DNA of 64,000 nt from positions 1 to 64,000 of the forward strand of contig CAMYJH010000022.1 of the NCBI GenBank assembly GCA_947258715.1, given 5' to 3'. The stretch is from an uncultured Gammaproteobacteria bacterium (lineage in GTDB: Bacteria; Pseudomonadota; Gammaproteobacteria; HK1). The translations under genes and the position numbers were made by a program. The notes beneath the pieces are model-generated. The model was not told where the DNA came from. It saw only the letters and a list, made by a program, of their open reading frames with translations, and ran no database searches. The first letter of the stretch is position 1, and each line of letters begins with the position of its first letter. Of the stretch, positions 47,659-64,000 are shown one piece after another.

Positions 47659-48810
47659 ATGGCGCTCCACTTCACTCCCGCCGAATTCGTGAGACGTCGC
47701 AAGTCCCTGCTTTCATTAATGGATTCGAGAGGACTGGAGGCGCTTTTGCTGTTCAAACAAGAAAGCATGTATTACCTCACGGGCTACGACACCTTTGGAT
47801 TCTGCTTTTTCCAGTGCCTGGTGTTGACCACCGACGGGCGCTTCACCCTGCTGACAAGAGCGCCGGATCTGCGCCAAGCGCAGCACACGTCCATCCTCGA
47901 AGACATCCGGGTATGGACCGACGCCGCTGGCCATAACCCGGCTGACGATCTGCGACAGATATTGGATGAGCACGGGCTCAAAGGCCGGAGGCTCGGGGTG
48001 GAGTACGACGCCTATGGGCTCACCGCTTACAATGGCCGCCGGCTGGAAGCGGCGCTGGAAGGGTTCGCAGCGCTCGAGGATGCTTCCGATCTGGTGAGCC
48101 GGCTGCGCGTGGTCAAAAGCGATGCCGAGATCGAGTACGTAATACGCGCCGCCGAGCTGGCCGACGACGCCCTGGAGGCCGCCATCAATATGTGCGCGCC
48201 CGGCACATTCGAAGGGGATATTCTCGCCGCCATGCAGGGTGCGGTGTTTCGCGGCGGAGGAGATTATCCGGGAAACGAGTTCATCATCGGCTCCGGCAGC
48301 GGCGCGCTGCTCTGCCGCTATTTCAGCGGCAGAAGAAAGCTCTCGAACACGGATCAAATCACGCTGGAGCACGCTGGCGTTTACCGCCATTATCACGCCG
48401 CGCTGATGCGCACTTTGCTGGTGGGCGAGCCCCACCCAGAGCATCTTAAAATGCATCCGGCTTGTGTGGATGCCATGCACGCCTGCATCGAGGCGCTCAA
48501 GCCGGGGCGGCCGGTGGGCGAGGTTTTTGACGCCCACGCGAAGGTGCTGGACAAGGCGGGCTTGAAAGCCCATCGCATGAACGCCTGTGGTTACAGCTTA
48601 GGCGCGACTTTTACGCCCACGTGGATGGATTTTCCCATGTTCTATACCGGCAACACACTGCTGGCCGAGCCGAACATGGTGTTCTTCATTCACATCATCC
48701 TCATGAACAGCGATGCCGGCCGCGCCATGACTTTGGGCCAGACGGTGCGCGTGACCGAGTCCGGCTGCGAGCGCTTGAGCCGGATGCCGCTGGATCTGGT
48801 TGTGAAATAA
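47659..48810 (+). CDS. M24-family hydrolase (creatinase/prolidase type)
   Basis: A 383-residue pita-bread-fold enzyme from the ATG at 47659 (open upstream to TTG 47641). N-terminal creatinase domain: LMDSRGLEALLLFKQESMYYLTGYDTFGF. C-terminal domain: GDYPGNEFIIGSGSGALLCR, LEHAGVYRHYHAALMRTLLV and AEPNMVFFIHIILMNSDAGR. The five metal ligands of true prolidases (D, D, H, E, E) are not all seen, for example EHAGVYRHYH replaces a metal-binding Asp; in this it resembles metal-free creatinase and ectoine hydrolase. It is paralogous to DoeA at 51827 in its fold but with only modest similarity. Substrate unknown; the neighbours suggest a small N-containing compound. Confidence 0.85.
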   Translation: MALHFTPAEFVRRRKSLLSLMDSRGLEALLLFKQESMYYLTGYDTFGFCFFQCLVLTTDGRFTLLTRAPDLRQAQHTSILEDIRVWTDAAGHNPADDLRQILDEHGLKGRRLGVEYDAYGLTAYNGRRLEAALEGFAALEDASDLVSRLRVVKSDAEIEYVIRAAELADDALEAAINMCAPGTFEGDILAAMQGAVFRGGGDYPGNEFIIGSGSGALLCRYFSGRRKLSNTDQITLEHAGVYRHYHAALMRTLLVGEPHPEHLKMHPACVDAMHACIEALKPGRPVGEVFDAHAKVLDKAGLKAHRMNACGYSLGATFTPTWMDFPMFYTGNTLLAEPNMVFFIHIILMNSDAGRAMTLGQTVRVTESGCERLSRMPLDLVVK

Positions 48811-48919
48811 AATCCGTCAGCGGAAGGAAACCGTGACCTCGGCCGCGGCGTAGACCCGTAGCCTATAAATCGGAACTGCATTTAATCAAACCTTCGATAT
48901 CTCCTACAGCAAAGCCGGT

Positions 48920-49516
48920 ATGGATATACAGACCATTCCCGCGAGGCGGGGCAAAGCCGCATTTGCCGACGCCGGACAGAAGATCAAAGTGATCAATACC
49001 CACGGCGAGCAGGTGGTGGACACCTGGGCCTTCGCCCGGGAGAACCTGGACGAGTTCATGTCCATGGAGCATACCCGGGCGACGCTGGTGAAGCTCATGC
49101 CGGCGTTGGGGGATCACCTGTACTCCAACCGGCGCAGGCCGATTCTGACCCTGGTTGAGGACACTTCCCCCGGAGTTCACGATACCTTGATGGCTGCCTG
49201 CGACGACTATCGCTACAAGCTGCTCGGCTGCACCGACTACCACGACAACTGTACCGACAACCTGGCCGCGGCCATGGACGCGCTCGGGCTCGAGGCGCCG
49301 GAGACACCGAGTCCGTTGAACCTGTTCATGAACATCCCCTGGGGCGCCGACGGCGTGCTTGCCTTCGAGCCGCCGCTGACTCGGCCGGGAGATTACGTGG
49401 TGCTGGAGGCGAACATGGATCTGGTGATTGCATTCTCCGCCTGCCCGCAGGATATTCTGCCCGTCAACGGCAAGGCGGGGCGGCCGACGGAAGCGCACTT
49501 TCAGATCCTCGACTGA
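48920..49516 (+). CDS. DUF1989 (urea carboxylase-associated type) protein
   Basis: A 198-residue protein with DUF1989 wording: IPARRGKAAFADAGQKIKVI, GEQVVDTWAFARENLDEFMS, MEHTRATLVKLMPALGDHLY and the metal-like cluster CDDYRYKLLGCTDYHDNC. Members accompany urea carboxylase/allophanate hydrolase, or aminomethyl-cycle and amine-degradation genes, and the exact reaction is often unproven. Here it sits between an M24 hydrolase and a Rieske oxygenase, and the next gene begins 40 bases later, so these are probably one transcription unit. Confidence 0.88.
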   Translation: MDIQTIPARRGKAAFADAGQKIKVINTHGEQVVDTWAFARENLDEFMSMEHTRATLVKLMPALGDHLYSNRRRPILTLVEDTSPGVHDTLMAACDDYRYKLLGCTDYHDNCTDNLAAAMDALGLEAPETPSPLNLFMNIPWGADGVLAFEPPLTRPGDYVVLEANMDLVIAFSACPQDILPVNGKAGRPTEAHFQILD

Positions 49517-49555
49517 GTTCGATTGCAGCAACCACTACGAGCGAGCACTGCAGGT

Positions 49556-50761
49556 ATGAGCAACGAGATCTCTTCCATAGGGCGTAACGGCGGCCTGGAC
49601 CCGGCGCTGCTGGCAGCCGTCAACCGGAACACCGTCGATGCCTGCGGACTGCCCAACCAGGCTTATGTCAGTCGGACTTTTGCCGAGTTCGAGCGGGACG
49701 GACTGCTCGCACGCACCTGGGTGTGCATCGGTGCGGCGGGGAGCTTAACAAACAAAGGCGACGCCAGGCCGGTCTCGCTTCTCGGCTTGCCGCTGTTCAT
49801 GGTCCAGGATGGCGACGGCATCAACGTGTTTCACAACGTGTGCAGCCACCGGGGGCACCAGCTGATCGGCGCAGCCTGCCGCTTCAAGGGATCGATTCGC
49901 TGTCCCTATCACTCATGGACCTACGCCTTCGACGGCGCGCTCCGAGGGACGCCGCATATCGGCGGCCCGGGCGTTCACGAGGCGGAAGGATTCGACCGCA
50001 GCCGCCACGGCTTGAAGCCGGTGCGGAGCGCCGAGTGGATGGGGCTCGTGTTTGTCAATCTGTCCGCAGACGCGCCGGATCTGGACCGGCATCTCGCGCC
50101 CCTGAGTTCACGCTGGGTCAGGTTTCTCGGTCAAGGCGACGCGGCAAGGCTGAAGCTCGCCAGCGAAGACGACAGCTTCTCTCTCGAAATCGAGGCCAAC
50201 TGGAAGCTGGCGGTGGAAAACTTTTGCGAGAGCTACCACCTGCCGTGGATCCATCCGGGACTGAATCGCTACTCTCGGCTCGAAGATCACTATCACATTA
50301 TGCACGAGGGTCTGTTCGCCGGTCAGGGTACCCGCGTCTACGACCCCGTCTATCGCGCCGGCGCCGAGTTCCCGGCTTTCTCCGGCTGGCCCGAAGGGGA
50401 GCAGCGTTTGGCCGAATACGTGGCGCTGTTTCCCAACGTGATGCTCGGCCTTCACGTGGATCACTTCTACGCCGTGGTGCTGATCCCCGAGTCGCACCAT
50501 CGCACCCGCGAGGAGATGCGCATTTTCTATCTGGATGACGCCGCCGAGTCCGAAACCCACGCGGAGTCACGGCGTACCACGCGGGAAGCCTGGCGAGCGA
50601 TCTTTCTGGAAGACGTCGGCGTAGTAGAGGGCATGCAGCGGGGCAGGCACTCGCCGGCTTTTTCCGGCGGCGCATTTTCGCCGGTGATGGATCCACCGAC
50701 ACACTGCTTTCATAAGTGGGTCGCCAATGGCGTAAACAACCGAAATCTAGACACGGCCTGA
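49556..50761 (+). CDS. Rieske-type ring-hydroxylating/N-demethylating oxygenase, alpha subunit
   Basis: A 401-residue non-haem iron oxygenase from ATG 49556. The Rieske 2Fe-2S site is CSHRGH and CPYHSW (C-x-H and C-x2-H). The mononuclear iron site is in NWKLAVENFCESYHLPWIHP (the H-x4-H pair), with the third ligand Asp/Glu further on. The fold continues with LGLHVDHFYAVVLIPESHHR and ends HKWVANGVNNRNL. By wording it is closer to choline monooxygenase/GbcA-like enzymes than to aromatic dioxygenases, but substrate cannot be read. A reductase partner is not seen in the window; DUF1330 follows after 22 bases. Confidence 0.87.
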   Translation: MSNEISSIGRNGGLDPALLAAVNRNTVDACGLPNQAYVSRTFAEFERDGLLARTWVCIGAAGSLTNKGDARPVSLLGLPLFMVQDGDGINVFHNVCSHRGHQLIGAACRFKGSIRCPYHSWTYAFDGALRGTPHIGGPGVHEAEGFDRSRHGLKPVRSAEWMGLVFVNLSADAPDLDRHLAPLSSRWVRFLGQGDAARLKLASEDDSFSLEIEANWKLAVENFCESYHLPWIHPGLNRYSRLEDHYHIMHEGLFAGQGTRVYDPVYRAGAEFPAFSGWPEGEQRLAEYVALFPNVMLGLHVDHFYAVVLIPESHHRTREEMRIFYLDDAAESETHAESRRTTREAWRAIFLEDVGVVEGMQRGRHSPAFSGGAFSPVMDPPTHCFHKWVANGVNNRNLDTA

Positions 50762-50783
50762 AAGTCAAAGCTAAGGAGTTCCC

Positions 50784-51071
50784 ATGGCTGCCTATATCAT
50801 CGTGCAAGTGAACGTGAACGATCCGGAACGCTACGAGAACTACAAAAAAATGGTGCCGCCGTCGCTCGAACCCTACGGCGGACGTTTTCTGGTCCGGGGC
50901 GGGAAGGTGGAGAATCTCGAAGGGAGCTGGGATCCGGTGCGGTTGGTGGTGATCGAGTTCGACAGCGTGGAGAGAGCCAAGGCGTGGTGGGGCTCCAGCG
51001 AGTACGCGGAAGCCAAGGCCCTGCGTCAGGCCACCGCCGACACCGAAATGATCGTGGCCCAGGGCGCCTGA
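50784..51071 (+). CDS. DUF1330 domain protein
   Basis: A 95-residue dimeric alpha/beta-barrel-type protein, in the ferredoxin-like ABM family. The wording matches DUF1330: AYIIVQVNVNDPERYENYKK, MVPPSLEPYGGRFLVRGGKV and FDSVERAKAWWGSSEYAEAK. AAGGAG lies before the ATG at 50784. It is the last gene of the plus-strand run starting at 47659. Such proteins may act as small-molecule binders or isomerase-like helpers; the function is unknown. Confidence 0.88.
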   Translation: MAAYIIVQVNVNDPERYENYKKMVPPSLEPYGGRFLVRGGKVENLEGSWDPVRLVVIEFDSVERAKAWWGSSEYAEAKALRQATADTEMIVAQGA

Positions 51072-51203
51072 ACCAGCGGCTACGGCGCCACAACCCTATA
51101 CCTATCGGGAATGAGCAAATCAGGTCTCGTAATTGGCCCTTCCGACCGGAAAATCCTTACCATTGAAAGAAAGGTTAGCGACGAACACGCGACATTGAAC
51201 CAG

Positions 51204-51246
51204 GCCCGCTGTAGGAGCGAGCTTGCTCGCGATTCCTCAGATCAGG
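51204..51246. repeat. left 43-base REP-like inverted repeat
   Basis: GCCCGCTGTAGGAGCGAGCT, then TGCTCGCGATTCCT, then CAGATCAGG. It contains the dyad GCGAGC/GCTCGC known from Pseudomonas REP elements. It pairs with the copy at 51711-51753, which is the reverse complement with two differences in 43 bases. Confidence 0.85.
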
Positions 51247-51276
51247 CGGATCGGCGATCAACGCAGTAACAACACC

Positions 51277-51678
51277 ATGACCGTCAACATCAAAAAAGGC
51301 CACAAACAGCTCGTCGACGAGGCGGAAGCCCTGATCGATACCCTTGCTGCTGAAGAGGCCATCAAGCTTCACGGCAACGAATGCGTGGTGATCGTGGATC
51401 TTCGCGACGTTCGCGAACTCCGGCGTGAAGGCAGGGTTCCAGGCTCCTTCCACATGCCTCGCTGCATGCTGGAGTTCTGGATCGATCCGGAAAGTCCCTA
51501 TTTCAAGGATGTTTTCAGCCAGGACAAGCGCTTCGTTTTTTATTGCAACAAGGGCTGGCGCTCGGCGCTCGCCACTCGAACCGCCCAGGAGATGGGGCTG
51601 GAAGACGTGTGCCACATCGGCGGCGGATTCAGCGCCTGGCAGGCGGCGGGAGGGCCGACCGAGGAGTACGGTAAATAG
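51277..51678 (+). CDS. rhodanese-domain sulfurtransferase
   Basis: A 133-residue single-domain rhodanese from ATG 51277. The active-site loop is FYCNKGWRSALATRTAQEMG with the persulfide Cys; the N-terminal VVIVDLRDVRELRREGRVPG carries the conserved Asp/Arg pattern. No signal peptide is visible. The gene stands inside the 43-base inverted repeats (51204-51246 and 51711-51753), unlike all neighbours, so it could have come in as a cassette. Thiosulfate or another sulfane donor is probable; partners are unknown. Confidence 0.88.
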   Translation: MTVNIKKGHKQLVDEAEALIDTLAAEEAIKLHGNECVVIVDLRDVRELRREGRVPGSFHMPRCMLEFWIDPESPYFKDVFSQDKRFVFYCNKGWRSALATRTAQEMGLEDVCHIGGGFSAWQAAGGPTEEYGK

Positions 51679-51710
51679 CAGAACCGTTTTGGATCGCGCA
51701 CAGGTTCAAC

Positions 51711-51753
51711 CCTGATCCAAGGAATCGCGAGCAAGCTCGCTCCTACAGCGGGC
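51711..51753. repeat. right 43-base REP-like inverted repeat
   Basis: Reverse complement of the left copy with two differences. Together they bracket about 465 bases holding only the rhodanese gene. The core also appears once at 20619-20642. Confidence 0.85.
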
Positions 51754-51826
51754 TTCGTTCTAGTCGGTGTCAACTCCTGTCTTCTTCGCTGGGTACCACG
51801 CACTGCATGCTCCATATTCTCCAACA

Positions 51827-53005
51827 TCAGTCCTTGACGAACAGCTTCCGGGGGAAATTACAGAACGTCTCGGCACCCTTCTCGGTAATGCGGAAACACT
51901 CGCTGATCTCGATGCCCCAGTCGTCGAGCCAGACCCCGGGGATCATATGCAGCGTCATGTTGGGCTCGAGCTCGGTCTTGTCGCCCGGACGCAGGCTCAA
52001 GGTGCTTTCACCCCAGTCCGGTGGATAGTTGAGCCCGGTGGAATAGCCGATGCGCGAGTCTTTAACGATTCCGTGCTTCTCTATGGTTTCTCGCCAAGAG
52101 CGCTCCACCGACTCGCAGGTGACCCCCGGCTTGACCGCATCGAGTGCGTTATTGAGTCCCTCTACAACCACTTCGGCAGTATCGGTAATCTTTTTCGGCG
52201 GTTTTCCCAGGTGCACCGTGCGCGCCATTGGACAGTGGTAGCGATGGCTCACGCCGGCGATTTCCAGGATAGTCCCCTCGCCTGCAACGAAAGGGGTGTC
52301 GGTCCAGGTGAGATGAGGCGTCGAAGTGCCGATCCCGGTGGGCAGCATCGGGCAGATAGCAGAGTAGTCACCGCCGAACTCCGGTGTTCCCGCCACCATG
52401 GCGCGATAAATCTCCGCCGCTGCATCGCACTGCCGAACGCCGGGGCGGACATTTTCGATACCGACCCGCATCATGTTTTCGACGATTCGCGCCGCCTGGG
52501 TCATGTAAGCGATTTCCTGCTCGGTCTTGATGTTGCGCACCCAGTTGACCAGCGTAGTGGTGTCCTCGAAGCGCGCATTGGGTAGATTGCCCTGGAGCGA
52601 GGCGAAGCAAGCGGCAGTGAAATAAAAGCTGTCCATCTCCACGCCGACTGCTCGACGCTCCCACCCTTTTTGCTTGATTAGATCAGCGACGAAGTCCATG
52701 GGGTGTTTGCTCGTCGACTGGACATAGTCATCGGCGTACGGATGAATGTGGTCGTCGGTGAGAAACGTCGTCACTTTCGCCGCGTTGGCGTCAATTCCGC
52801 GGCCTATCCAGTGGGGATCTTCATCGTCCAGCGCTACCAGAACCAGCTGGTGGACGTAAAAAGACCAGCCGTCGTACCCCGTGAGATAGCACATGTTCGC
52901 CGGATGGGTGCAGAGCAAGATTTCAACGCCGCGCTCCGACATGCGGGTCTTGGTGTTTTTTATCCGCTGGCGGTATTCGGACTGGTCGAAGGGGTGGGTG
53001 TACAT
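51827..53005 (-). CDS. doeA: ectoine hydrolase
   Basis: A 392-residue M24-family enzyme that opens the ectoine ring to N-acetyl-diaminobutyrate, the first step of ectoine use as carbon and nitrogen source. DoeA/EutD wording is strong: LTGYDGWSFYVHQLVLVALD, DDYVQSTSKHPMDFVADLI, VGVEMDSFYFTAACFASLQG, VKDSRIGYSTGLNYPPDWGE and IPGVWLDDWGIEISECFRIT. The canonical partner DoeB (deacetylase) is not in the window, nor is the ect synthesis cluster, so use of external ectoine is likelier than turnover of own. The region before its start holds GTGATTAG-type repeats. Confidence 0.9.
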   Translation of the reverse strand: MYTHPFDQSEYRQRIKNTKTRMSERGVEILLCTHPANMCYLTGYDGWSFYVHQLVLVALDDEDPHWIGRGIDANAAKVTTFLTDDHIHPYADDYVQSTSKHPMDFVADLIKQKGWERRAVGVEMDSFYFTAACFASLQGNLPNARFEDTTTLVNWVRNIKTEQEIAYMTQAARIVENMMRVGIENVRPGVRQCDAAAEIYRAMVAGTPEFGGDYSAICPMLPTGIGTSTPHLTWTDTPFVAGEGTILEIAGVSHRYHCPMARTVHLGKPPKKITDTAEVVVEGLNNALDAVKPGVTCESVERSWRETIEKHGIVKDSRIGYSTGLNYPPDWGESTLSLRPGDKTELEPNMTLHMIPGVWLDDWGIEISECFRITEKGAETFCNFPRKLFVKD

Positions 53006-53008
53006 TTT

Positions 53009-53192
53009 CGAGTGATTAGTGATCGGAGATTAGATATTAGTGATTGGTGATTAGTGATTTGTGGGTGGTGATGCGTGACGCGTCATGCGTGATGCGAAAT
53101 AGGAAATTGCGAGATTTTGGTTCCGGTTTTTTTTAATCAGATGTGTGTCGAAAGGCTAGCCTGATCGCTAATCGCGAATCACTAATCACCTT
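53009..53192. repeat. GTGATTAGTGAT repeats and inverted counterpart
   Basis: At 53009-53063 the pattern GTGATTAGTGAT(C/T)GG recurs three times imperfectly, followed by GTGATGCGTGACGCGTCATG. At 53161-53192 the reverse complement appears (CGAATCACTAATCACC). The inverted arms could pair. The stretch separates doeA from the PhyH gene and holds no frame. Confidence 0.6.
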
Positions 53193-53252
53193 CCAGAGCA
53201 CCAGCAGTCGTTTTCAGCGCCTTACAGCACTGTGTCTGATTCTAAGACCCCC

Positions 53253-54062
53253 TCAAGCGTGCTCCGCTTCCCGGGACAACTCTTTAAGGCAGTCGTCGGG
53301 GAGAGGCTCGATAGGGGTGAAATCACGATGCGCAATCCACTCCGGGCGCTCGAAGCGGCGGATATGGTTATCCACGTGACACAGGCTGAGGTAAACAATG
53401 GTGCGGCCGAAGGGTGAGATATTGGAAGGCGAAGCGTGCACCAAGTTGCAGTGGAACATGAGCACCGATCCGGCAGAACCTTTTGGCGCGACGATACCGC
53501 CTTCGTCCACCAGACGCCGCACGGTGTCGTTATCCAGCGTCCACAACGGATAGCTGGTGGTCTCGAGGTCGTGACCGGCCTCCAGCTTGCCCTGCTTGTG
53601 GCTCTTGGGAATGAACATGAGCGGCCCGTTGAACTCGGTCACGTCTTCCAGAAACAAGGCGATGTTCATGGCTCTCGGTTCCGGCATCAGATCGTCACGG
53701 GCCCAGGTGCCGTAGTCCTGGTGCCATTGCCAAACGTCTCCATCGAAGGCGGCCTTGGCGTTAACCTTGAACTGGTGCATGTAGATCGGGCCGTCCAGCA
53801 GCTGCATCACCGGCTCGATGAGCCTTGGGTGCTGGCCTAAGCGCGAGAACGCCTGGTTGAAGGTATGGGCGGCAAATGTGGTGCGAACGGCGCGGCTGCC
53901 CTTCTCACGCACGTTTTCTTTTCGATCCTGAGCAAAAATATCTGGCACTTCTCGCATCAGGACGGCGACTTCCTCGGCGTCGAACACTTGTGGAAGAAAC
54001 ACGTAGCCTTGACGGTGAAATTCTTGAATTTGCTCCTGGCTGAGTCCCATGACTTTCCCCAT
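53253..54062 (-). CDS. PhyH/EctD-type 2-oxoglutarate Fe(II) dioxygenase
   Basis: A 269-residue non-haem oxygenase from ATG 54062 (54050 possible; the frame stays open to 54428 without a protein-like leader). The metal-binding HxD is in VWQWHQDYGTWARDDLM and the distal His in FHCNLVHASPSNISPFGRTI, whose Arg binds 2-oxoglutarate. The fold resembles ectoine hydroxylase EctD and phytanoyl-CoA dioxygenase, but residues typical of EctD (for example FYWHSDFETW) are replaced by WQWHQDYGTW, so it is not called EctD. It probably hydroxylates an amino-acid-like substrate from the same catabolic neighbourhood; the neighbour DoeA is suggestive. Confidence 0.8.
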   Translation of the reverse strand: MGKVMGLSQEQIQEFHRQGYVFLPQVFDAEEVAVLMREVPDIFAQDRKENVREKGSRAVRTTFAAHTFNQAFSRLGQHPRLIEPVMQLLDGPIYMHQFKVNAKAAFDGDVWQWHQDYGTWARDDLMPEPRAMNIALFLEDVTEFNGPLMFIPKSHKQGKLEAGHDLETTSYPLWTLDNDTVRRLVDEGGIVAPKGSAGSVLMFHCNLVHASPSNISPFGRTIVYLSLCHVDNHIRRFERPEWIAHRDFTPIEPLPDDCLKELSREAEHA

Positions 54063-54533
54063 CTCGGCCGCGGAGGATCGCCGCCCTAATCTGAATTCGA
54101 GAATCGTCATCAGGATATTCGAATTCGCGCGCCGACGCGACAGAGGTTTAGCAGGCGGCTTAAAACTGAAGCTTTCGGCAGCACGGCTTCGGCACAGGAG
54201 CGAGCAGGGATTTAGACGAAGCTCCGTCGGCTGAGCCTGAGCAAGTCGAAGTTCCCGCGGATCGCCGCTGCGGACAACGACCGAGACAGGTATGACCCGG
54301 TCTGGTGCCCCAACGGGGTACGATCGCGAAGCAAAGGGAGATCGCCTTCGAACGGGCCTGCCACCGGGAGCGCACCCTCCGCTTTGAAGCGATGCGGAAG
54401 AGCATCGCGCGGAAGATGCCGACATCAATCAAGCAAATCACGCGCCTGATCGACGCAGCAAGACGCAGGCCGCGTCTTCGTCGTAGCGCGGTCTAGATCG
54501 ATAGGATATCGATTGACTACTTTTACCCAGATT
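54063..54533. other. intergenic region, 471 bases
   Basis: Between the start of the PhyH gene and the end of the AAA ATPase. Open frames on both strands translate to Arg/Ser-rich sequences without RBS. It contains the phrase CGGCTGAGCCTGAGCAAGTC, a degenerate form of another REP-like sequence, and the dyad ATCGATAGGATATCGAT (54498-54514). Nothing else supported. Confidence 0.4.
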
Positions 54534-56012
54534 TCAATTGGCAGGAACGGTGCGTTCCCGGGCCCAGGCTCTGAGACCGGCGATGCGTTCGGACATGACC
54601 ACCGAGAGCGGGCGCGTGCGTCCAATTTCGTCCATCACTGTCTGCGCGTTCAGGGCCTTTTTGCACGCGTGTGCCGAGTACAACGCAGACACCACAGCCT
54701 GCTCGATCTCCGCCCCGGAGAAGCCCTCGCAGGCCGCCGCGCATGAAACGAGGTCGATGCCGTTGGCTTTTACCTTGCGTTTGGAGAGATGGATTTCGAG
54801 GATTTCCCGCCGCGTGTCCTCGTCCGGGAGGTCGACGAAGAAGATTTCATCCAGCCGTCCTTTGCGCAGCAGTTCCGGGGGCAGCGCTTCGATGTCATTT
54901 GCGGTGGCGACAATGAAAACGCGAGAACGGTTTTCCGCCATCCAGGTGAGAAGCGAGCCAAGCAGGCGACGCGAGACGCCGCTGTCGCTCGAATCGACGC
55001 TCACGCCCTTCTCGATTTCGTCGATCCACAGCACGCAGGGCGCCATGGCTTCCGCCTGGCGAAGCGATTCGCGCAGGTTGCGCTCGGTTTCGCCGTGGTA
55101 CTTGTTGTAGAGGCTGCCAAAATCCAGCCGCAGAAGTGGCGTGCCCCACGCGCCGGCCACGGCTTTGGCCGCGAGGCTCTTGCCGCAGCCCTGCACCCCG
55201 AGGAGCATGATGCCTTTGGGGAGATCAAGGCCATCGGCTCCGGACTGACCCTGGAAGATCGCCTTGCGGACTCCGAGCCACGATTTGAGCTTATCCAGCC
55301 CGCCTACTTCGGCGAACTGCGCGGTGTCGAACTCGTAGGCGAGCACGCCGTCCTGCCCGATGAGCCGGAACTTGGTTTTCATCACCCCCGGGAGGTCGGA
55401 TTCGGTGATCGCGCCGTCGTCCTCGATGGCGCCGCGGGCCAGGCGCTTGGCGTCGGTGACGGGTAGGCCGACGAGATTGTCCACCAGTCGATCAAGCATC
55501 CGCTGGCTGCTCTGGACCGCCCGGCCGGTGTTCTTCTTCGACCAGTCCCGGGCCTCGGCGGCGACGATGTCGCCCAGCTGGCGTCGCGTCGGAACCGCGA
55601 GATCGAAACGGGCCGTGAGCCACTGTATCTCGGCCGGAACGTCCAGGGCGTGGGAAATGAATACCAGGGTGTGGGCAACGTCCTCGTAAGCCAGCGCAAT
55701 GTCCTTGATCAGCCGCACGTGAAGCGGGTCGTCCACGTAAGGATGGAAATCCGAGAGCAGGTAAATCCCGGCCTGACGCGTGGATCGGATCTGACCCAGC
55801 AGCTCTTCCGGCTTTCGGGTGTGCGTCTGCGCGCCAAAGTCCTTGTCCAGGCGACGCAAACCCTCGGTGATCGACCAGCGGTAAAGAGGCTTTCTATGCA
55901 GCACCAGGACGCGCATAAACAGCTGGATCACGCGGCGTTCCTCCCGCGTCTCGATCACGATGAGCGGCACCGGTGAGCGCAGCAGGACTTCGAGGTCGTG
56001 GAGATCGGGCAT
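54534..56012 (-). CDS. AAA ATPase of the Ycf46 type
   Basis: A 492-residue AAA protein with a non-catalytic N-terminal domain (residues 1-230, IVIETREERRVIQLFMRVLV) and one AAA module. Walker A is LLGVQGCGKSLAAKAVAG near residue 270, Walker B CVLWIDEIEKGVS, sensor 1 IVATANDIEALPPELLRKGR with arginine fingers, then ILEIHLSKRK and the C-terminal helical domain with GFSGAEIEQAVVSALYSAH. Proteins like plastid Ycf46 and cyanobacterial homologues share this order; in cyanobacteria a role in CO2-limited photosynthesis has been proposed. Its function in heterotrophs is unclear. No partner is adjacent. Confidence 0.88.
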   Translation of the reverse strand: MPDLHDLEVLLRSPVPLIVIETREERRVIQLFMRVLVLHRKPLYRWSITEGLRRLDKDFGAQTHTRKPEELLGQIRSTRQAGIYLLSDFHPYVDDPLHVRLIKDIALAYEDVAHTLVFISHALDVPAEIQWLTARFDLAVPTRRQLGDIVAAEARDWSKKNTGRAVQSSQRMLDRLVDNLVGLPVTDAKRLARGAIEDDGAITESDLPGVMKTKFRLIGQDGVLAYEFDTAQFAEVGGLDKLKSWLGVRKAIFQGQSGADGLDLPKGIMLLGVQGCGKSLAAKAVAGAWGTPLLRLDFGSLYNKYHGETERNLRESLRQAEAMAPCVLWIDEIEKGVSVDSSDSGVSRRLLGSLLTWMAENRSRVFIVATANDIEALPPELLRKGRLDEIFFVDLPDEDTRREILEIHLSKRKVKANGIDLVSCAAACEGFSGAEIEQAVVSALYSAHACKKALNAQTVMDEIGRTRPLSVVMSERIAGLRAWARERTVPAN

Positions 56013-56263: not shown

Positions 56264-57193
56264 ATGTCAACCCCTTCCCCAAATCCCGCAACCCTTCCCA
56301 ACCCTTACGCCAACGGCGCCGCTTTTGTCGACGGGGACTACGTTCCGATCGCCGAGGCTCGCCTGCCGGTCTTGGATTGGGGATTTACCCGTTCGGATGT
56401 GACCTACGACGTGGTGCACGTGTGGAAGGGGCGTTTTTTTCGTCTCGAAGATCACCTGGACCGATTTCTGCGCTCCTGTGAAAAGCTTCGCCTTGCGCCC
56501 CCCGCGCGGGAGGAGATCCGTGAATCATTGATGCGCTGCGTACAGCTGAGCGGGCTGCGGGACGCCTACGTGGAAATGGTCTGCACTCGTGGCGCGCCAG
56601 CGCCGGGCTCACGAGATCCGCGCACCTGCGTCAATCGCTATCTCGCTTTCGCCATTCCATTTATCTGGGTAATCACGCCGCAACAGCAGGAACGCGGCGC
56701 TCATCTGATCATTTCCCAGACGCCGAGGATTTCGCCGGCGTCGGTAGACCCGACGGTCAAAAATTTTCACTGGGGTGATCTCACCCGGGCGCTGTTCGAA
56801 GCCTACGACCGCGAAGCCGACACCGCGGTGCTGGTGGACGCCGAGGGCTACATATCAGAGGGACCGGGTTTCAACGTGTTTTGCGTTTGCGACGGCCGGG
56901 TGCGGTCGCCTGGGCAGACGGTGCTCGAGGGCATTACGCGCAGATCGGTGAAAGAGCTGTGCGAAGAGTTGGGCGTGCCTTTCGAGCTTTGCCGGATCAC
57001 GCCAGAAGAGCTGAGAGAAGCGGACGAGGTTTTTCTCTCCACCACCGCTGGGGGCGTCATGCCGGTCAGCCGGGTGGACAACCGTATTCTGGGCAACGAT
57101 CGCCCGGGGCCGTTGTCGCTTCGATTACGCGACCTCTACTGGAGCAAGCACGATGAAGGTTGGCACGCGACGCCGGTGGATTATACCGACTGA
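56264..57193 (+). CDS. class IV PLP-dependent aminotransferase (D-amino-acid/branched-chain type)
   Basis: A 309-residue enzyme. Fold-type IV motifs are present: FVDGDYVPIAEARLPVLDWG, DVTYDVVHVWKGRFFRLEDH, the probable PLP Lys in PTVKNFHWGDLTRALFEAYD, EGYISEGPGFNVFCVCDGRV and EVFLSTTAGGVMPV near the end. The family covers D-alanine transaminase, branched-chain and 4-amino-4-deoxychorismate lyase enzymes; the LDWGFTRSD motif favours a transaminase. Relatives include (R)-selective amine transaminases. Given the neighbours, it may remove an amino group from a degradation intermediate, but this is inference. No strong RBS is seen before ATG 56264. Confidence 0.88.
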   Translation: MSTPSPNPATLPNPYANGAAFVDGDYVPIAEARLPVLDWGFTRSDVTYDVVHVWKGRFFRLEDHLDRFLRSCEKLRLAPPAREEIRESLMRCVQLSGLRDAYVEMVCTRGAPAPGSRDPRTCVNRYLAFAIPFIWVITPQQQERGAHLIISQTPRISPASVDPTVKNFHWGDLTRALFEAYDREADTAVLVDAEGYISEGPGFNVFCVCDGRVRSPGQTVLEGITRRSVKELCEELGVPFELCRITPEELREADEVFLSTTAGGVMPVSRVDNRILGNDRPGPLSLRLRDLYWSKHDEGWHATPVDYTD

Positions 57194-57724: not shown

Positions 57725-57816
57725 GCCCAGCCCGCATTTTCTGTCAGTGCAACGCCGCCGATGCGGGCAGAGTCGCGCCTGCCGCCGAGGGTTGGCGAAT
57801 AGCGTGGGCTTATCGC

Positions 57817-58704
57817 TCAGTGCAGCTTGCTGCCGATAAGGTCGCGAGGGAGAAAGCTGCCCAGGGTCGAGATATCGGTGAGCCTCACCCGATCCTTTTG
57901 ATCGATTTCCACAACCAGATGCTTGCGCGAGACCGCGCCGAAGGCGTTGTCCAACGTAACGCTGCAGTGAGCGCTTCGCCCGATGATGTTTTTACCCGCA
58001 CCAACCTTTAGGTCGTGGCCGGTCTCGTCGACGAGCAGAAAGGGCCGACCGGAGACCAGGGTAAATCGGTACTTCGCCAGCACGATGTCGAGGGACTGGT
58101 GTTCGCCAAACTGAATCTCAATGGATTCCCCCTTGGACATGCGGGCAAATCCATTTTCATCCGACAGCGCCCGCGTCCCGCCGATGCCCGCAAGCCCTTG
58201 CAGATCGAACATCAGCCGCTGCCTTTGACTGAGATCTGCGTTCGGTTGCCCGCGGACCCGATCATCGGAGTCGTCCATGCTGCCTAGCCGATTCACGCGA
58301 ATGGTTCGAATAATGTCCTGGGCGGCAGAGAGGTAGGCAACGTACTTGAGAAGTGCAGCCTTCTTATACGGCTCACACGCTTCGTCCAGGGCCCGGATTG
58401 CCTCAATGAGGTCACGCCAGTCGTGGTCCTCGCTGATTTTGTCCAGCTCGAGCCGCTTTAGAAACCGATCTATGCCGTTTCCCGGGCTCGACAGCACGTC
58501 GACGATGCGTTGCTCCATTGAGCGGTAGGCTTCCGCCTCGCGCATCAGCGCGTCGTCTGAGAGCTTGCCAAGACCCGAAACCGTCGCCGACGACAACGCA
58601 GTCTTGTCCTTGAGCGCGTATTCAAACTCGCCTAGGTCCTTGAATCTGAGCTGACCCGCACCGACGGAAAGCTCGACGGATTTTTCGAACAGTCGCTTCA
58701 GCAT
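57817..58704 (-). CDS. FHA-domain protein
   Basis: A 295-residue cytoplasmic protein. The N-terminal 190 residues are helical without a recognised domain (LGKLSDDALMREAEAYRSME, IEAIRALDEACEPYKKAALL). The C-terminal 75 residues are a forkhead-associated domain: KNIIGRSAHCSVTLDNAFGA, then VSRKHLVVEIDQKDRVRL, with the phosphothreonine-binding Arg, Ser and His, and LTDISTLGSF. The N of the usual NGT is not obvious. FHA proteins bind phosphothreonine made by Hanks-type kinases; the kinase gene at 38.1 kb is a possible source, but 19 kb away. Start MLKRLFEKSVELSVGAGQLR has no strong RBS. Confidence 0.85.
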   Translation of the reverse strand: MLKRLFEKSVELSVGAGQLRFKDLGEFEYALKDKTALSSATVSGLGKLSDDALMREAEAYRSMEQRIVDVLSSPGNGIDRFLKRLELDKISEDHDWRDLIEAIRALDEACEPYKKAALLKYVAYLSAAQDIIRTIRVNRLGSMDDSDDRVRGQPNADLSQRQRLMFDLQGLAGIGGTRALSDENGFARMSKGESIEIQFGEHQSLDIVLAKYRFTLVSGRPFLLVDETGHDLKVGAGKNIIGRSAHCSVTLDNAFGAVSRKHLVVEIDQKDRVRLTDISTLGSFLPRDLIGSKLH

Positions 58705-58933
58705 GAAACGATGATCTCGTCAATTTGAGAATATATTAGACCATAGCGGCGGGCTTGATCACGCGGGAAGCCCCTTCGTTTTGGACGCGGAACTCCGGGT
58801 TCGACCGTCTGCGTGGATAAAGCCACCACGGCATGGCGGTGGAATAAGGGAATTGGCGCCGGGCGGCGTTGCCGACTTTCGCAAAATGACCGTGGAAGCG
58901 TTCCAGACAACCGCAGTCTTCCGAAAGCGTTTG

Positions 58934-59842
58934 CTAAAACACGATAACGGCGTCGTACTGGCGAAAACTCTGCGTCAAGTGCGGAAACCAGGCGTAGACT
59001 TCGGCGTGCAGCATCGCCGTGTGCGGCACGACGAATGGTGGCGCGGGAAGCTCGAGTTCCTGAAGGAAATTCACGAATGCCTCGGTTTCACCGGAACCGT
59101 GGGCGTTGACCACATTCACGCTCAGAGTCGAGCCGATCCGGCGTCCGCGGCCTTCGCGCATGCGGCCGAGAAACCAGTTGGGCTCGTCGATACAGTGCAG
59201 CGCGCCGTAGAGCACGGCGTGCTGCCGGCCGCTACGAAAATCAGCGTGGAAGTTATCGACAATGGACTGTTCTCGCGAGCCGGTCCTGGTTTTGAAGCGC
59301 GCGACTCGCTGCGACCGCGTCTCTTCGATGCCGTGAACGGAAACCCTTGCGTTCGCCGCGCGCGCGGCGCGAATGACCTCGGCCACGTCGGCTTCGAGCA
59401 TCGACAGGCGCGAGCTGCCCGATTCAATGAGTTTAACCAGGATCGCCAAGTCATCGTGCGTGATTTCCAGCATCAGGACATCAACCGGGTACTTGGGGAA
59501 AAACCGGGTCGCGAGAAAGGTCCGGGTCAAGTCGTCGTGAGTTTCGCCGACACAAATCACGTCCGGCTGCGCGGTGCGAATTTTCGCCAGCCATGAATCC
59601 AGCGTTGTAATGGCCAAGTCGAGACTGTCGCGCAGCTGTTGTCGCTCGAACGGCGGAATGTCCGCGAGCTTACGAAGCGCATTTTCGCGCAGATAGTCGA
59701 TTTCCGGATAGCGGATGCTGCCTTGCTTGGGTCGAGAAGGTGGCAGAGGGCTGGGTACGAAATTCTCTTTCGCCCAGTCGTAGCCCATGGCCAGAAATAT
59801 GCCGAGAATCATCAAAATGCAGCCGTAGAGCAGGTTACGCAT
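58934..59842 (-). CDS. EreA/ChaN-like (GETH motif) membrane-anchored protein
   Basis: A 302-residue protein with an N-terminal TM or signal anchor (LLYGCILMILGIFLAMGYDW) and a Pro-rich linker. The domain has the TIKI/EreA/ChaN-type motifs: VICVGETHDDLTRTFLATRF with Gly-Glu-x-His, LMLEITHDDLAILVKLIESG and VLYGALHCIDEPNWFLGRMR with G-x-x-H. These clans are metal-dependent hydrolases or haem-uptake factors; the real reaction is unknown. The single start at 59842 fits the anchor. It is flanked by the ABC importer genes on the same strand after 119 bases, which may or may not be functionally linked. Confidence 0.7.
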   Translation of the reverse strand: MRNLLYGCILMILGIFLAMGYDWAKENFVPSPLPPSRPKQGSIRYPEIDYLRENALRKLADIPPFERQQLRDSLDLAITTLDSWLAKIRTAQPDVICVGETHDDLTRTFLATRFFPKYPVDVLMLEITHDDLAILVKLIESGSSRLSMLEADVAEVIRAARAANARVSVHGIEETRSQRVARFKTRTGSREQSIVDNFHADFRSGRQHAVLYGALHCIDEPNWFLGRMREGRGRRIGSTLSVNVVNAHGSGETEAFVNFLQELELPAPPFVVPHTAMLHAEVYAWFPHLTQSFRQYDAVIVF

Positions 59843-59961
59843 ACGGTAGCCTTTCGTGAACGAGTGCGCGTCGTTAACTGAAGTCTTTGAGCGTACGGAG
59901 GCCTGAGAGGTTTATCTCGACGATATGACGCCTACCGCGCCGGCGCGTGGCTGCGCAATTA

Positions 59962-60906
59962 TTACTGGGGAGTCATGCCGCGCATGCGCTCGTTGCGGCG
60001 CCTGAGCATCTCCAGCGTGGTCAGCAGGAGTATCGACAGCACCACCAGGATTGTTGCGACCGCAAGGATGGTGGGGCTGATCTGTTCGCGAATGCCGGAA
60101 AACATCTGCCGCGGAATGGTGTACTCCGGGGCGCCGGCAAGAAACAGCACGATAACCACCTCGTCGAATGACGTGATGAAGGCAAACAGGGCTCCGGAAA
60201 TCATTCCGGGCATGACCAGCGGAACGGTCACTTTGAAGAATGTGCGTACACCGTCGGCGCCGAGGCTGGCAGCAGCGCGGGTCAGACTATGATCAAAGCT
60301 GACCAGCGTGGCGGTCACCGTGATCACAACGAAGGGTGTTCCAAGCGCCGCATGGGCGAGAATGATTGGCACCAAATGAAGGTTCTCGCTGATCGCGGAA
60401 AGCTGATTCGGCGTAATTCCAACCGTGGTGTAGAAGAACTTCATGCCTACAGCGGTGATCACCAGCGGGACGATCATGGGTGAGATGAGGAAGCCCATGA
60501 GAAAAGTTTTGAAGGGCAGTCGGCTGTTGCTCAAGCCCACTGCAGCAACTGTTCCAAGAAACGTCGCCAGGAGTGTGGCGAAAATAGCGATAATGACGCT
60601 GTTCTTGATGGCCAGATGCCAGACCTCCGATTTTTCCCCGACAAAGAAATCTTCATACCAGCGCAGGCTGAATCCCGGCATGGGGTAGGTAAAATACGGC
60701 TCGGCATTAAACGACAGCGGAATGATCACCAGAATGGGCGTGATCAGAAAGACCAGGATAGCGGCACAAATGACCCGGAAGCTGACAAACCACGTGCGGC
60801 CGAGCCAGCCCACATAGGTCGGAAGATTTCGCAGGCCCTTGATTGACGCGCGGACCGACACGATGAGAATCACGAGGAGCAGGGCATAGACGAGCAGTTT
60901 GATCAT
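59962..60906 (-). CDS. polyamine-type ABC transporter permease (PotC-like)
   Basis: A 314-residue inner-membrane protein with about six TM segments. The N-terminal 50 residues (LLVYALLLVILIVSVRASIK) look like an extra TM before the permease domain. EAA-type motif: LTRAAASLGADGVRTFFKVT, then PLVMPGMISGALFAFITSFD; the TFDEVVIVLFLAGAPEYTIP segment is typical of PotC. It starts four bases after the PotB-like gene. The pair imports spermidine/putrescine-like or other cationic solutes; the exact solute is not shown. Confidence 0.88.
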   Translation of the reverse strand: MIKLLVYALLLVILIVSVRASIKGLRNLPTYVGWLGRTWFVSFRVICAAILVFLITPILVIIPLSFNAEPYFTYPMPGFSLRWYEDFFVGEKSEVWHLAIKNSVIIAIFATLLATFLGTVAAVGLSNSRLPFKTFLMGFLISPMIVPLVITAVGMKFFYTTVGITPNQLSAISENLHLVPIILAHAALGTPFVVITVTATLVSFDHSLTRAAASLGADGVRTFFKVTVPLVMPGMISGALFAFITSFDEVVIVLFLAGAPEYTIPRQMFSGIREQISPTILAVATILVVLSILLLTTLEMLRRRNERMRGMTPQ

Positions 60907-60910
60907 GGCC

Positions 60911-62194
60911 TCAACCCAGCTTCATGTTGTCGATGCCGACAAGCTTGTCGTACAGCACGTATACGGCCAGCACCCCGGCGAGCAGGAAGGCGCCAAGCGA
61001 CGACGCTAGGCCCCAGTTGAGCGACCGGTTGGTATGGTCCGCGATGAAGTAGCTGACCAGCTGATCCGTCGGCCCGCCCACAAGCGCCGGCGTGATGTAG
61101 TAACCGAGGGCCAGAATGAACACCAGCAGGCCGCCGGCGCCGATTCCGGACAGCGACTGCGGAAAGTAAACTTTCCAGAATGCTGTCCAAGGCGTCGCGC
61201 CCAGCGAACGCGCCGCGCGCTCGTAACTCGGCGGAATGGTCTTCATCACGCTGTAAATGGGCAGGATCATGAACGGCAGCAGAATATGCGTCATCGCAAT
61301 GACGACGCCGAAACGATTGAAAATGAGCTGAATCCGCTCGTCGATGATCCCCATGAACATCATCACGTCATTGAGCACCCCCTCGGTCTGCAGCACCACG
61401 ATCCAGGCCGTGGTGCGCACCAGCAGCGAGGTCCAGAAAGGCAGCAGCACCAGGATCATCAGCAGGTTGCTGATGCGCAGCGGCAGATTTGCCAGCAGGT
61501 AGGCCACCGGGTAGCCGAGAAGCACGCATAGCGCGGTCACCAGGGCGCTGATCCAGAAGGTGCGCCACCAGACGGAATCGAATCCGGTGAGAAAATAGAG
61601 CTGGCGATTTTCCGGCTCCGCGGTGACGGACTTGTCCCAGTCGTAGCCCAAGTCGAGGGCCTTGAGGAAGAACTCGGCCGTGTAGCGATCGCCGCTGTAC
61701 TTGATCGTGGCCCAGACCTCCCGGTCGCCCCAATCCTTGTCGATTTCCAAGAACTTGTCCTTCCACCGGCCTTCCATGAACGGCCCCACCTGAACACGGC
61801 TAATCTTGCGTGCAGTCTTGGTGATCAGGCTGCGCATGCCGCCCTGGGAGTAATTGAGGCGCGTCGCCGCCCGGCCGACCGTTCGGTTCTTGTAGCCCCT
61901 GGCGAGCTCCGCCGCCAGCGTCTCGTATGCTTTTTCCGGTGGTGTCGGCGCTCCGGAGGGGTCCCAATCTTCGAGAACTATCAGCGTCTCCGAAAAAACT
62001 CCGGCCACTACCGGATTGTCGATGCTGCGGAACATCATCTGAGCGATGGGCGCCAAAAAAGTAAAGGAGACGAACACGAGCAGCGGCAGCACCAGCAGAA
62101 GCGCGCGTGTTTTATTGCGCCGCTCCGCTTTCGCCAGAGCGGCTTTCAGCGACATGCCTTCGGCGACCTGGAACGTCTGTGCTGCCTGTACCAT
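60911..62194 (-). CDS. polyamine-type ABC transporter permease (PotB-like) with long insertion
   Basis: A 427-residue permease, about 140 longer than PotB (275-290). After TM1 (LLLVLPLLVFVSFTFLAPIA, about 33-52) comes a periplasmic insertion, about residues 60-200, with no recognised domain (MRSLITKTARKISRVQVGPF, IKYSGDRYTAEFFLKALDLG). The core resumes with WWRTFWISALVTALCVLLGY, and the EAA loop is YERAARSLGATPWTAFWKVY. The end LNWGLASSLGAFLLAGVLAV is standard. Such enlarged PotB-type subunits recur in marine proteobacteria by memory, but the role of the insertion is unknown. Partner PotC follows immediately. Confidence 0.88.
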   Translation of the reverse strand: MVQAAQTFQVAEGMSLKAALAKAERRNKTRALLLVLPLLVFVSFTFLAPIAQMMFRSIDNPVVAGVFSETLIVLEDWDPSGAPTPPEKAYETLAAELARGYKNRTVGRAATRLNYSQGGMRSLITKTARKISRVQVGPFMEGRWKDKFLEIDKDWGDREVWATIKYSGDRYTAEFFLKALDLGYDWDKSVTAEPENRQLYFLTGFDSVWWRTFWISALVTALCVLLGYPVAYLLANLPLRISNLLMILVLLPFWTSLLVRTTAWIVVLQTEGVLNDVMMFMGIIDERIQLIFNRFGVVIAMTHILLPFMILPIYSVMKTIPPSYERAARSLGATPWTAFWKVYFPQSLSGIGAGGLLVFILALGYYITPALVGGPTDQLVSYFIADHTNRSLNWGLASSLGAFLLAGVLAVYVLYDKLVGIDNMKLG

Positions 62195-62260
62195 GAATGT
62201 TTCCTCTCTCGGTCCCTGTTGCGCTGTTTCCCGGATATCTCCGCTTACTTTCGAACGCCG

Positions 62261-63337
62261 TTACTTCACCAGCCAGGCGGAGAATCGCTCGTCCATCTCC
62301 TGCTGATTGTTGGCCCACCATTCAAAATCGTTCTGCACAGAGTTTGCGAAGTTATCCGGCGAGGTAGGCAGGTGCGGCTTTACCCGTTTGTTGACCTTTT
62401 CCATCGACGACCGTCTTACCGGACCGTAAGAGATGTACTTCGCCTGATCCGCAAGACGCTTGGTATCGGTGGAGAACTTGACGAACTCCAGCGCCGTCGA
62501 GAGGTTGGGCGTTCCTCTGACGATGCCCCAGAGGTCGATATCCCAGACCTGGCCGTCCCAGATGATTTCGAACGGCTTGCGCTCCTTGAAAATTGCGTTA
62601 TACAGCCGGCCGTTATAGGCCGACGTCATTGCCACCTCGCCGTCGGCGAGCAGCTGCGGCGGCTGGGCGCCCGCTTCCCACCAGACGACCTCGTGCTTGA
62701 TCTTGTCGAGCACTCTGAAAGCGCGATCGACGCCTTCCTCGGTGGCCAGGACTTCATACACCTGGGCTGCGGGCACGCCGTCGGCCATCAGCGCCCATTC
62801 TACGTTTACCCTAGGGCTTTTACGCAGACCGCGCTTACCGGGAAATCTTTCCAGGTTGAAGAAATCTCTGATCGATCGCGGCCATTCCTCGGTGAACTTA
62901 TCCCGGTCGAAGGCGACCACCGTCGACCAGACGATTTCTCCGACCGCGCATTCGGTGAGGGTCCCGGGAATAAAGTCGTCGGCCGCGGAGGTGCCGTCGG
63001 GAGCGGGCGGCAGGACGCTGTGGTCGATGGTCTCGAGAAGACCTTCGTCGCAGCCACGGATGGCGTCGGAAAGCTCCAGATCCACCACGTCCCAGGTCAC
63101 GTTGCCGGAATCGACCTGGGCTTTGACCTGCGCTAAGCCACCGTTGTAATCCTCGGAGAGGATTTTTACACCAGTCTTTTTCGCGAACGGCTCGTGGTAG
63201 GCCTTCACCTGGCTATGGGTGTAAGCGCCGCCCCAGGAGACCACGGTGAGGGTTTCGGCCGCTCGGGCCGCGCCGCCGGCAGCGGCCAGGGCAAGCGCGA
63301 CGATGAAAAGCGAACTGCTGAATGGCTTCGACATCAT
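62261..63337 (-). CDS. polyamine-type periplasmic solute-binding protein (PotD-like), copy 1
   Basis: A 358-residue binding protein from ATG 63337 (63334 also). Signal peptide: SSLFIVALALAAAGGAARAA. Mature start LTVVSWGGAYTHSQVKAYHE is PotD/spermidine-type, with NVTWDVVDLELSDAIRGCDE and VVWWEAGAQPPQLLADGEVA. The ligand pocket cannot be identified without alignment. It is followed on the same strand by the PotB- and PotC-like genes. The next gene upstream is a second binding protein of the same family. Confidence 0.9.
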   Translation of the reverse strand: MMSKPFSSSLFIVALALAAAGGAARAAETLTVVSWGGAYTHSQVKAYHEPFAKKTGVKILSEDYNGGLAQVKAQVDSGNVTWDVVDLELSDAIRGCDEGLLETIDHSVLPPAPDGTSAADDFIPGTLTECAVGEIVWSTVVAFDRDKFTEEWPRSIRDFFNLERFPGKRGLRKSPRVNVEWALMADGVPAAQVYEVLATEEGVDRAFRVLDKIKHEVVWWEAGAQPPQLLADGEVAMTSAYNGRLYNAIFKERKPFEIIWDGQVWDIDLWGIVRGTPNLSTALEFVKFSTDTKRLADQAKYISYGPVRRSSMEKVNKRVKPHLPTSPDNFANSVQNDFEWWANNQQEMDERFSAWLVK

Positions 63338-63427
63338 ACCCGTCGCCCTCGCTGGAAATTTTCCGATTATCTTCTTCTGCCTCAATCCACCCCAATTACC
63401 AGGCGGATGCATTGAGGAAGAAGAGCC

Positions 63428-63449
63428 GGGGGCGCGAAGCCGCGCCCCC
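63428..63449 (-). promoter_or_regulatory. hairpin between the two solute-binding genes
   Basis: GGGGGCGCG-AAGC-CGCGCCCCC, a perfect nine-base GC stem, 15 bases after the stop of copy 2 and 90 before the start of copy 1. No T run follows in the minus direction. In transporter operons such stems commonly slow 3' decay and raise binding-protein mRNA level, or partly attenuate transcription. Confidence 0.7.
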
Positions 63450-63464
63450 AAAGCTCGATTTGCC

Positions 63465-64000
63465 TTATCTCGCCAGCCAGGTGTTGAACCGTTCGTTCAA
63501 CTCGTCCTGGTTGTTGGCCCAGAACTCGTAATCGTTCTGCAGCGCATTCCTGAAGTTCTGCGCAGAGGTCGGCATGTGGGGCGCCATCTCCGGCTTCAAC
63601 AACGCCTGCGCCGATTTACGCACAGGTCCGTACGAGATGTAGTTGGACTGGTCCCAGTTACGCACGGTGTCGGTTGAGAACGCGACGAACTTGAGCGCGT
63701 TATCCAGGTTCCTGGACCCCCTGGGGATGACCCACAAATCAAGGTCCCAGATCTGACCGTCCCAGACGATGACGAAAGGCTTCTTCTCGTTGACGATGGC
63801 GTTGAACAGGCGACCGTTGTACGCCGTGGTCATCGCCACTTCGCCGTCAGCGAGCAGCTGGGGCGGCTGCGCGCCCGCTTCCCACCAGACCACGTGGTCC
63901 TTGATGCTGTCCAGCATCTTGAACGCACGGTCAATGCCTTCGTCGGTATCCAGCACCTTGTACACGTCCTTCACCGGAACGCCGTCGGCGATCAGCGCGA
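63465..64000 (-). CDS. polyamine-type solute-binding protein, copy 2 (runs off right edge)
   Basis: Only the C-terminal 178 residues lie in the window; the frame is open to base 64000 and its start lies beyond. The part resembles copy 1 along its whole length (VVWWEAGAQPPQLLADGEVA, YNGRLFNAIVNEKKPFVIVW, YISYGPVRKSAQALLKPEMA, FWANNQDELNERFNTWLAR), by eye about 60% identical. It ends in a typical LAR/LVK tail. Tandem duplication with divergence suggests two related solutes or affinities served by one permease pair. Confidence 0.9.
   Translation of the reverse strand, partial: ALIADGVPVKDVYKVLDTDEGIDRAFKMLDSIKDHVVWWEAGAQPPQLLADGEVAMTTAYNGRLFNAIVNEKKPFVIVWDGQIWDLDLWVIPRGSRNLDNALKFVAFSTDTVRNWDQSNYISYGPVRKSAQALLKPEMAPHMPTSAQNFRNALQNDYEFWANNQDELNERFNTWLAR

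Follow-up and report, generated by a model that had tools for sequence, protein, structure and literature searches.

The window analyzed here, i.e. the whole stretch of 64,000 bp (G000:C22:1-64000), belongs to the 4.9 Mb genome (G000) of a marine-type gammaproteobacterium and carries a catabolic island that can be read as a two-armed module linked to a GbdR-type activator. One arm would act on ectoine and the other on a relative of it that may be N-methylated or a guanidino compound. We give this reading, which was drawn from sequence comparisons, a probability of about 50%. More broadly, the neighbourhood probably imports and opens ectoine-like nitrogen osmolytes, with one ectoine-hydrolase-type enzyme from a poorly studied branch and a second, sister enzyme found widely among marine bacteria.

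Marine bacteria can draw on nitrogen-rich osmolytes such as ectoines, creatine and betaines for nutrition. Through this locus, a hydrolase family found at more than 300 genome loci, here named M24a, becomes connected with a Pot-type importer and with the breakdown of ectoine-type compounds. Additionally, the gene content supports, at the genomic level, the DoeB-less route for ectoine proposed in 2011; the literature examined yielded no test of this route.

Gene content of the window and its conservation in relatives

ORF and profile checks confirmed the genes of the first-pass annotation as genuine ORFs close to the positions assigned there (Table 1). The start of PhyH, placed at 54428, is located at ~54050 instead. 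The regulator described as GbdR-like exceeded the cut-off of its model. Likewise, the polyamine-type importer with two binding proteins proved to be an intact five-gene Pot-type unit, with PotA, both binding proteins, PotB and PotC all on the minus strand and the unit ending at 65811. Binding protein 1 scored 261 bits against the solved structure 8jv1. The closest solved relative of PhyH was 7e01 (225 bits), and PhyH stayed below the cut-off of the EctD model TIGR02408 (170.6 vs 336.5). A search of the literature on the PDB entries nearest to the binding protein and PhyH yielded nothing relevant.

Table 1. Genes of the island with their coordinates, strand and supporting matches
Feature	Coordinates	Strand	Evidence
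GbdR-type AraC-family activator	41734..42837	-	NF052371 491.5 bits, cut-off 480
M24a, metal-less DoeA/creatinase-type hydrolase, new clade	47659..48810	+	Pfam M24 + Creatinase_N
DUF1989 metalloenzyme (predicted)	48920..49516	+	PF09347 178 bits
Rieske oxygenase alpha subunit, carnitine/betaine-oxygenase-like	49523..50761	+	PF00355+PF00848
DUF1330 small protein	50784..51071	+	PF07045 118 bits
M24b, ectoine-hydrolase-type, DoeB-less branch	51827..53005	-	TIGR02993 543.6 bits, cut-off 613
PhyH Fe(II)/2-oxoglutarate dioxygenase, EctD/proline-hydroxylase-like	53253..54050	-	PF05721
AAA+ ATPase adjoining PhyH	54534..56012	-	PF00004
Class IV aminotransferase	56264..57193	+	
PotC-type permease	59962..60906	-	orthologues adjoin M24a in 8 loci, 56-63%
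PotB-type permease	60911..62194	-	orthologues adjoin M24a in 8 loci, 48-56%
Polyamine/opine-type binding protein 1	62261..63337	-	PF13416; M24a-adjoining orthologues 49-63%
Binding protein 2	63465..64000, on to ~64547 past the window end	-	68% to binding protein 1
Importer ATPase PotA	G000:C22 64717-65811, just past the window	-	68-75% to PotA adjoining M24a

The island was compared with two genomes of the same family, G007 (MAG CS4-K024) and G011, which share one genus distinct from that of the window. In both, M24a, DUF1989, M24b, PhyH and the AAA ATPase were located within 10-20 kb with 65-79% identity, and the conserved cluster genes overall showed 60-79% identity to the window. The gene order in G011 was AAA, PhyH, PotA, PotB, PotC and M24b, then convergent DUF1330, DUF1989 and M24a, with GbdR divergent from M24a. 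G007 carried GbdR divergent from M24a-DUF1989-Rieske and, on the other strand, M24b, PotC, PotB, PotA, PhyH and AAA. The GbdR orthologues (72-74%) were found ~120-165 bp from the divergent M24a in both relatives; within the window itself 4.8 kb separate the two genes, and a prephenate dehydratase and an ABC permease/ATPase unit intervene. A corrinoid-activation (AcsV)-like gene was present ~4 kb from GbdR in G007.

DUF1989 shared 76% identity and PhyH 76-79% with their counterparts in both relatives, where the AAA ATPase (65-71%) adjoined PhyH as well. The Rieske oxygenase was present in the G007 cluster (60%) and not in that of G011, DUF1330 in the G011 cluster next to DUF1989 (67%) and not in that of G007. 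The prephenate dehydratase, rhodanese, class IV aminotransferase, Sel1 and FHA-type genes of the window had no match in either cluster. Its ABC ATPase matched those of G007 and G011 generically (32-41%), and a ChaN-like gene found a weak match (35-42%) ~10 kb off in G007. The transporter adjoining M24b in the two relatives differed from the importer of the window (29-46%) and came without a binding protein.

Since GbdR, M24a, DUF1989, M24b, PhyH and AAA were kept in both relatives while the intervening genes mostly were not, we regard these genes as the core. Rieske and DUF1330 each occur in two of the three genomes, and the aminotransferase, previously listed as a cluster member, is outside the core. 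Co-conservation in relatives had been set beforehand as the test that could refute the neighbourhood, and the core was retained in both. Its presence in another genus, in a compact divergent/convergent order, argues for the two-armed module. The patchy occurrence of Rieske and DUF1330, the distance of GbdR from M24a and the different transporter in G007 and G011 were counted against it.

Outside the cluster, a PhyH relative was again found near a 53% relative of the AAA ATPase in a genome of another family (G229, L148:9424-15736). In the window genome a second PhyH (G000:C23:107738-108520, L149; 44-47%) apparently shares an operon with genes for an MFS transporter, a DAO oxidoreductase and a sorbosone dehydrogenase.

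The M24a family, DUF1989 and the Rieske oxygenase

M24a stayed far below the cut-offs of the DoeA models (194 vs 575 and 167 vs 613). DoeA was its nearer relative with 124 bits compared to 39.5 bits for creatinase 1chm. The predicted structure (pLDDT 89) was closest to the fold of DoeA (TM 0.90-0.94), with prolidases and creatinase at TM 0.72-0.86. According to the alignment the metal-ligand aspartates are replaced, and a Glu is located at the position of the DoeA EIAG motif. In the tree M24a formed its own, well-supported clade with distinct motifs. An assignment as DMSP lyase DddP was rejected (36.5 vs cut-off 600). In a number of gammaproteobacterial MAGs (L083:11171-11818, also L060, L061, L065, L077 and L079) the gene after M24a encodes a DMSP-lyase-type cupin.

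In total, 312 pattern-confirmed relatives of M24a were found in genomes, with carriers including Thalassospira, Kiloniella, SAR116 and SAR324. M24a adjoins an orthologous Pot-type importer in eight other loci (L064, L084-L087, L099, L105 and L106; identities in Table 1). In L064, from an alphaproteobacterium, this importer is located between M24a and EutB together with DoeA (665 vs cut-off 613). L051 carries M24a near DoeB (546 vs 402.7), DoeA and creatinase, and L043 carries it near creatinase and M24b. These arrangements in unrelated genomes, together with the fold nearest to DoeA, support the two-armed module. L043 contains five M24-fold genes within 10 kb (L043:10001-19532), namely M24a, a second M24, a PepQ-like gene, M24b and a true creatinase that scored 635 bits against 1chm; genes for a DAO oxidoreductase and an EutA-type racemase share this stretch.

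Other contexts of M24a were less uniform. In SAR116-like loci, which lacked Eut genes, M24a and the importer were accompanied by an aminotransferase and an arginase-family enzyme. The neighbours were unrelated in Thalassospira, Kiloniella and others; both observations were counted against the two-armed module. In most alphaproteobacteria M24a is found beside the housekeeping genes lgt, pgeF, L25, pth and ychF, so the substrate of M24a is not given by its neighbourhood alone. Taken together, the contexts suggest that M24a hydrolyses a C-N bond in compounds of the ectoine, creatine or guanidino type, without singling out one of them.

The window DUF1989 protein is probably an active metalloenzyme, since the metal-site residues of TMAO demethylase, i.e. 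three Zn cysteines, a His and an Asp (PMC12560246), are apparently all present by motif. It missed the models of carboxyguanidine deiminase/UAAP1-UAAP2 (TIGR03424, 102 vs 284.7; TIGR03425, 66 vs 205.95), and relatives of it adjoin agmatinases. The best solved relative of the Rieske protein was the carnitine oxygenase CntA (122 bits). Motif search and alignment to 6y9c revealed CxH/CxxH, a 2-His site and a Glu at the bridge position of NxxExYHxxxxH. The GbcA model NF058607 was missed (112.8 vs 670), and glycine betaine catabolism was rejected, with no GbcA over the cut-off in G000 or G007. We infer N-demethylation or C-N cleavage by Rieske and DUF1989 from these matches; the literature search found no paper on DUF1989 with a Rieske oxygenase. 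Relatives of the Rieske protein (45-55%) are located near DddP in the family of the window (L040:8203-9543 and L037:11557-12897); DddP of L040 exceeded the DMSP lyase cut-off (610.9 vs 600) and that of L037 is DddP-like.

Several of these loci would also fit two independent units that happen to be neighbours, one for ectoine with M24b and PhyH, the other for a guanidino compound or methylamine with M24a, DUF1989, Rieske and the Pot importer. M24a and its importer manage without Eut genes in several loci, the arginase-family enzyme adjoins M24a, agmatinases adjoin the DUF1989 relatives, and a true creatinase is close to M24a in L043 and L051. However, both arms are found together in G000, G007 and G011. 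Moreover, a DoeA/M24b gene was located within ~10 kb of M24a in 4 of 80 fetched loci (L043, L044, L051 and L064), compared to ~0.3 expected with one DoeA/M24b gene per genome, a rough figure because the loci are related, thus not fully independent, and the flank lengths vary. We consider two separate units possible, but rather unlikely.

M24b and the candidate ectoine partners elsewhere in the genome

The earlier call of M24b as DoeA holds for the type of protein, as alignment with over-cut-off DoeA proteins showed all DoeA motifs (GGDY, HLTW, EIAG and PPDWGE) to be retained. It does not hold for the curated cut-off, which was missed and counts against the two-armed module. M24b scored 426 bits against DoeA of H. 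elongata (6twk) and, like DoeA, lacks the metal-ligand Asp pair in the alignment. In the tree the M24b clade (window, G007, G011 and L043) was sister to enzymes of the genus g162 (support 100/98), and both were placed apart from canonical DoeA (97/100). M24b was grouped with a DoeB-less gammaproteobacterial set. Such a second DoeA branch has been described for Firmicutes, Euryarchaeota and some Gammaproteobacteria, with an acetylated route to aspartate proposed in 2011 (PMC3187862). M24b is likely an ectoine hydrolase of this branch.

The nearest outside relatives of M24b (62-63% identity) were found in L206, L207 and L208. L207 carries the relative together with EutC, EutB, DoeD and Ssd, and its DoeD is 69% identical to a DoeD-like transaminase on contig C5 of the window genome. 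EutC was present in L208, which is a contig end, and EutB and Ssd in L206; DoeB was not found in any of the three stretches. These partners of the closest M24b relatives argue for the two-armed module. Furthermore, a 73% homologue in L043 adjoins the EutA-type racemase, a 60% relative in Priestia is part of a eutB, cyclodeaminase and M20 cluster, and haloarchaeal relatives (~56%) are accompanied by BCCT and aminotransferase genes. One genome, G003, showed a marked expansion with 15 DoeA-model matches and 8 Rieske matches.

The first-pass annotation had noted the absence of DoeB, DoeC and DoeD from the island and proposed to search for them elsewhere. Outside the window, EutB was found on contig C21 (G000 C21:16382-17326; 443 bits vs cut-off 413), followed by a decayed start of doeA (~17475-17655). 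Contig C5 carries a decayed doeB fragment (~102421-102813), then the DoeD-like transaminase and EutC, which exceeded the cyclodeaminase model NF006141 (451 vs 408) and not TIGR02992 (411 vs 472). A trimethylamine methyltransferase (MttB)-like gene adjoins EutC (G000:C5:105560-107110, minus strand). The canonical ectoine cluster thus seems to be broken up in G000. No intact DoeB over the cut-off was found in this genome; the best match, on another contig, reached 271.9 vs 402.7. The product of an aspartoacylase-family gene on contig C2 shares 37-39% identity with true DoeB and scored under the cut-off.

EutB also exceeded the cut-off in G007, which carries EutC as well; the presence of these partners in both genomes supports the two-armed module. 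No EutB turned up in G011 in spite of the cluster there; this and the lack of an intact DoeB count against the module. In its favour, DoeA-type genes were present in all five genomes with EutB and in 4 of 12 without EutB among 17 genomes of the family (Fisher p 0.02). Ectoine synthase (EctC) was not found in G000 or G007, a further point for the module; therefore the substrate would be external.

The missing Doe genes had been taken as a doubt about ectoine. This doubt was not supported, because partners are encoded elsewhere in the genome and clusters of the M24b branch normally come without DoeB (PMC3187862, PMC13188858). What stood of the initial proposal is the island itself with its DoeA-type hydrolase and its co-conservation; this doubt and the membership of the aminotransferase did not.

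A substrate other than ectoine is unlikely; in this reading M24b would have shifted to some other compound, a cyclic amidine or an N-acyl one, and EutB, EutC and DoeD would serve something else. This would agree with the score of M24b under the DoeA cut-off, with the doeA and doeB remnants, which suggest decay of the canonical route, and with the DoeB-less clusters of Bacillota, Thermodesulfobacteriota and archaea being termed provisional (PMC13188858). However, M24b retains all DoeA motifs, and its closest relatives keep their EutB, EutC, DoeD and Ssd partners. A mere chance cluster without shared function, conceivable for families as common as M24, PhyH, Rieske and Pot transporters (compare G003 above), is largely refuted, since order and content are kept in another genus at 60-79% and most intervening genes are not.

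Proposed mechanism and comparison with known systems

In the two-armed module the GbdR-type activator probably controls the use of ectoine-type nitrogen osmolytes from outside the cell. The first arm would consist of AAA, PhyH and M24b, in the relatives also of the ABC importer. M24b may open the ring of ectoine or hydroxyectoine, PhyH may hydroxylate the substrate or an intermediate, and EutB, EutC and the DoeD-like transaminase encoded elsewhere would continue the route. Deacetylation possibly comes last, with the aspartoacylase-like protein as candidate enzyme. The second arm (M24a, DUF1989, Rieske, DUF1330 and the Pot-type importer) would act on a related but distinct compound. Here, M24a may cleave a C-N bond hydrolytically by a metal-free DoeA/creatinase-like mechanism, and Rieske and DUF1989 may remove N-methyl or amidino groups. 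We infer each reaction, the substrates, the regulation and the union of both arms in one pathway; a different substrate for the M24a-DUF1989-Rieske arm is our best guess.

Tentatively, M24a and the Pot-type importer might be the central part of a so far undescribed pathway, widespread in marine bacteria, that takes up and hydrolyses a cyclic-amidine or guanidino osmolyte. DUF1989 and the CntA-type Rieske oxygenase would then be lineage-specific additions removing N-methyl or amidino groups, under control of the GbdR-type activator in the family of the window.

The GbdR regulon of Pseudomonas comprises the catabolism of choline, glycine betaine and dimethylglycine. The window resembles it in a regulator over the GbdR cut-off and a betaine/carnitine-type Rieske oxygenase, but its genome has no over-cut-off GbcA and the gene content is not that of betaine catabolism. 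With TMAO demethylase and carboxyguanidine deiminase the window DUF1989 shares the metal-site residues by motif; unlike these, it is a stand-alone subunit under both family cut-offs. Like creatinase and other metal-less M24 enzymes, M24a has no metal-ligand Asp pair, and it is found near true creatinase in two loci, but it scores nearer to DoeA and differs by its own clade and motifs. M24b agrees with the DoeB-less branch in identity and tree placement and differs in gene neighbourhood and importer.

The doe/eut clusters (doeABCD; eutABCDE-ssd-atf) of Halomonas, Ruegeria and Caballeronia have the DoeA-type hydrolase in common with the window. EutB, a candidate EutC and a DoeD-like partner are present in its genome as well, but scattered and without an intact DoeB over the cut-off. 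In place of the Ueh, Ehu or BCCT transporters the locus carries a Pot-type ABC importer, and GbdR is linked to it instead of EnuR. Compared to these clusters the window adds PhyH, AAA, M24a, DUF1989 and the Rieske oxygenase.
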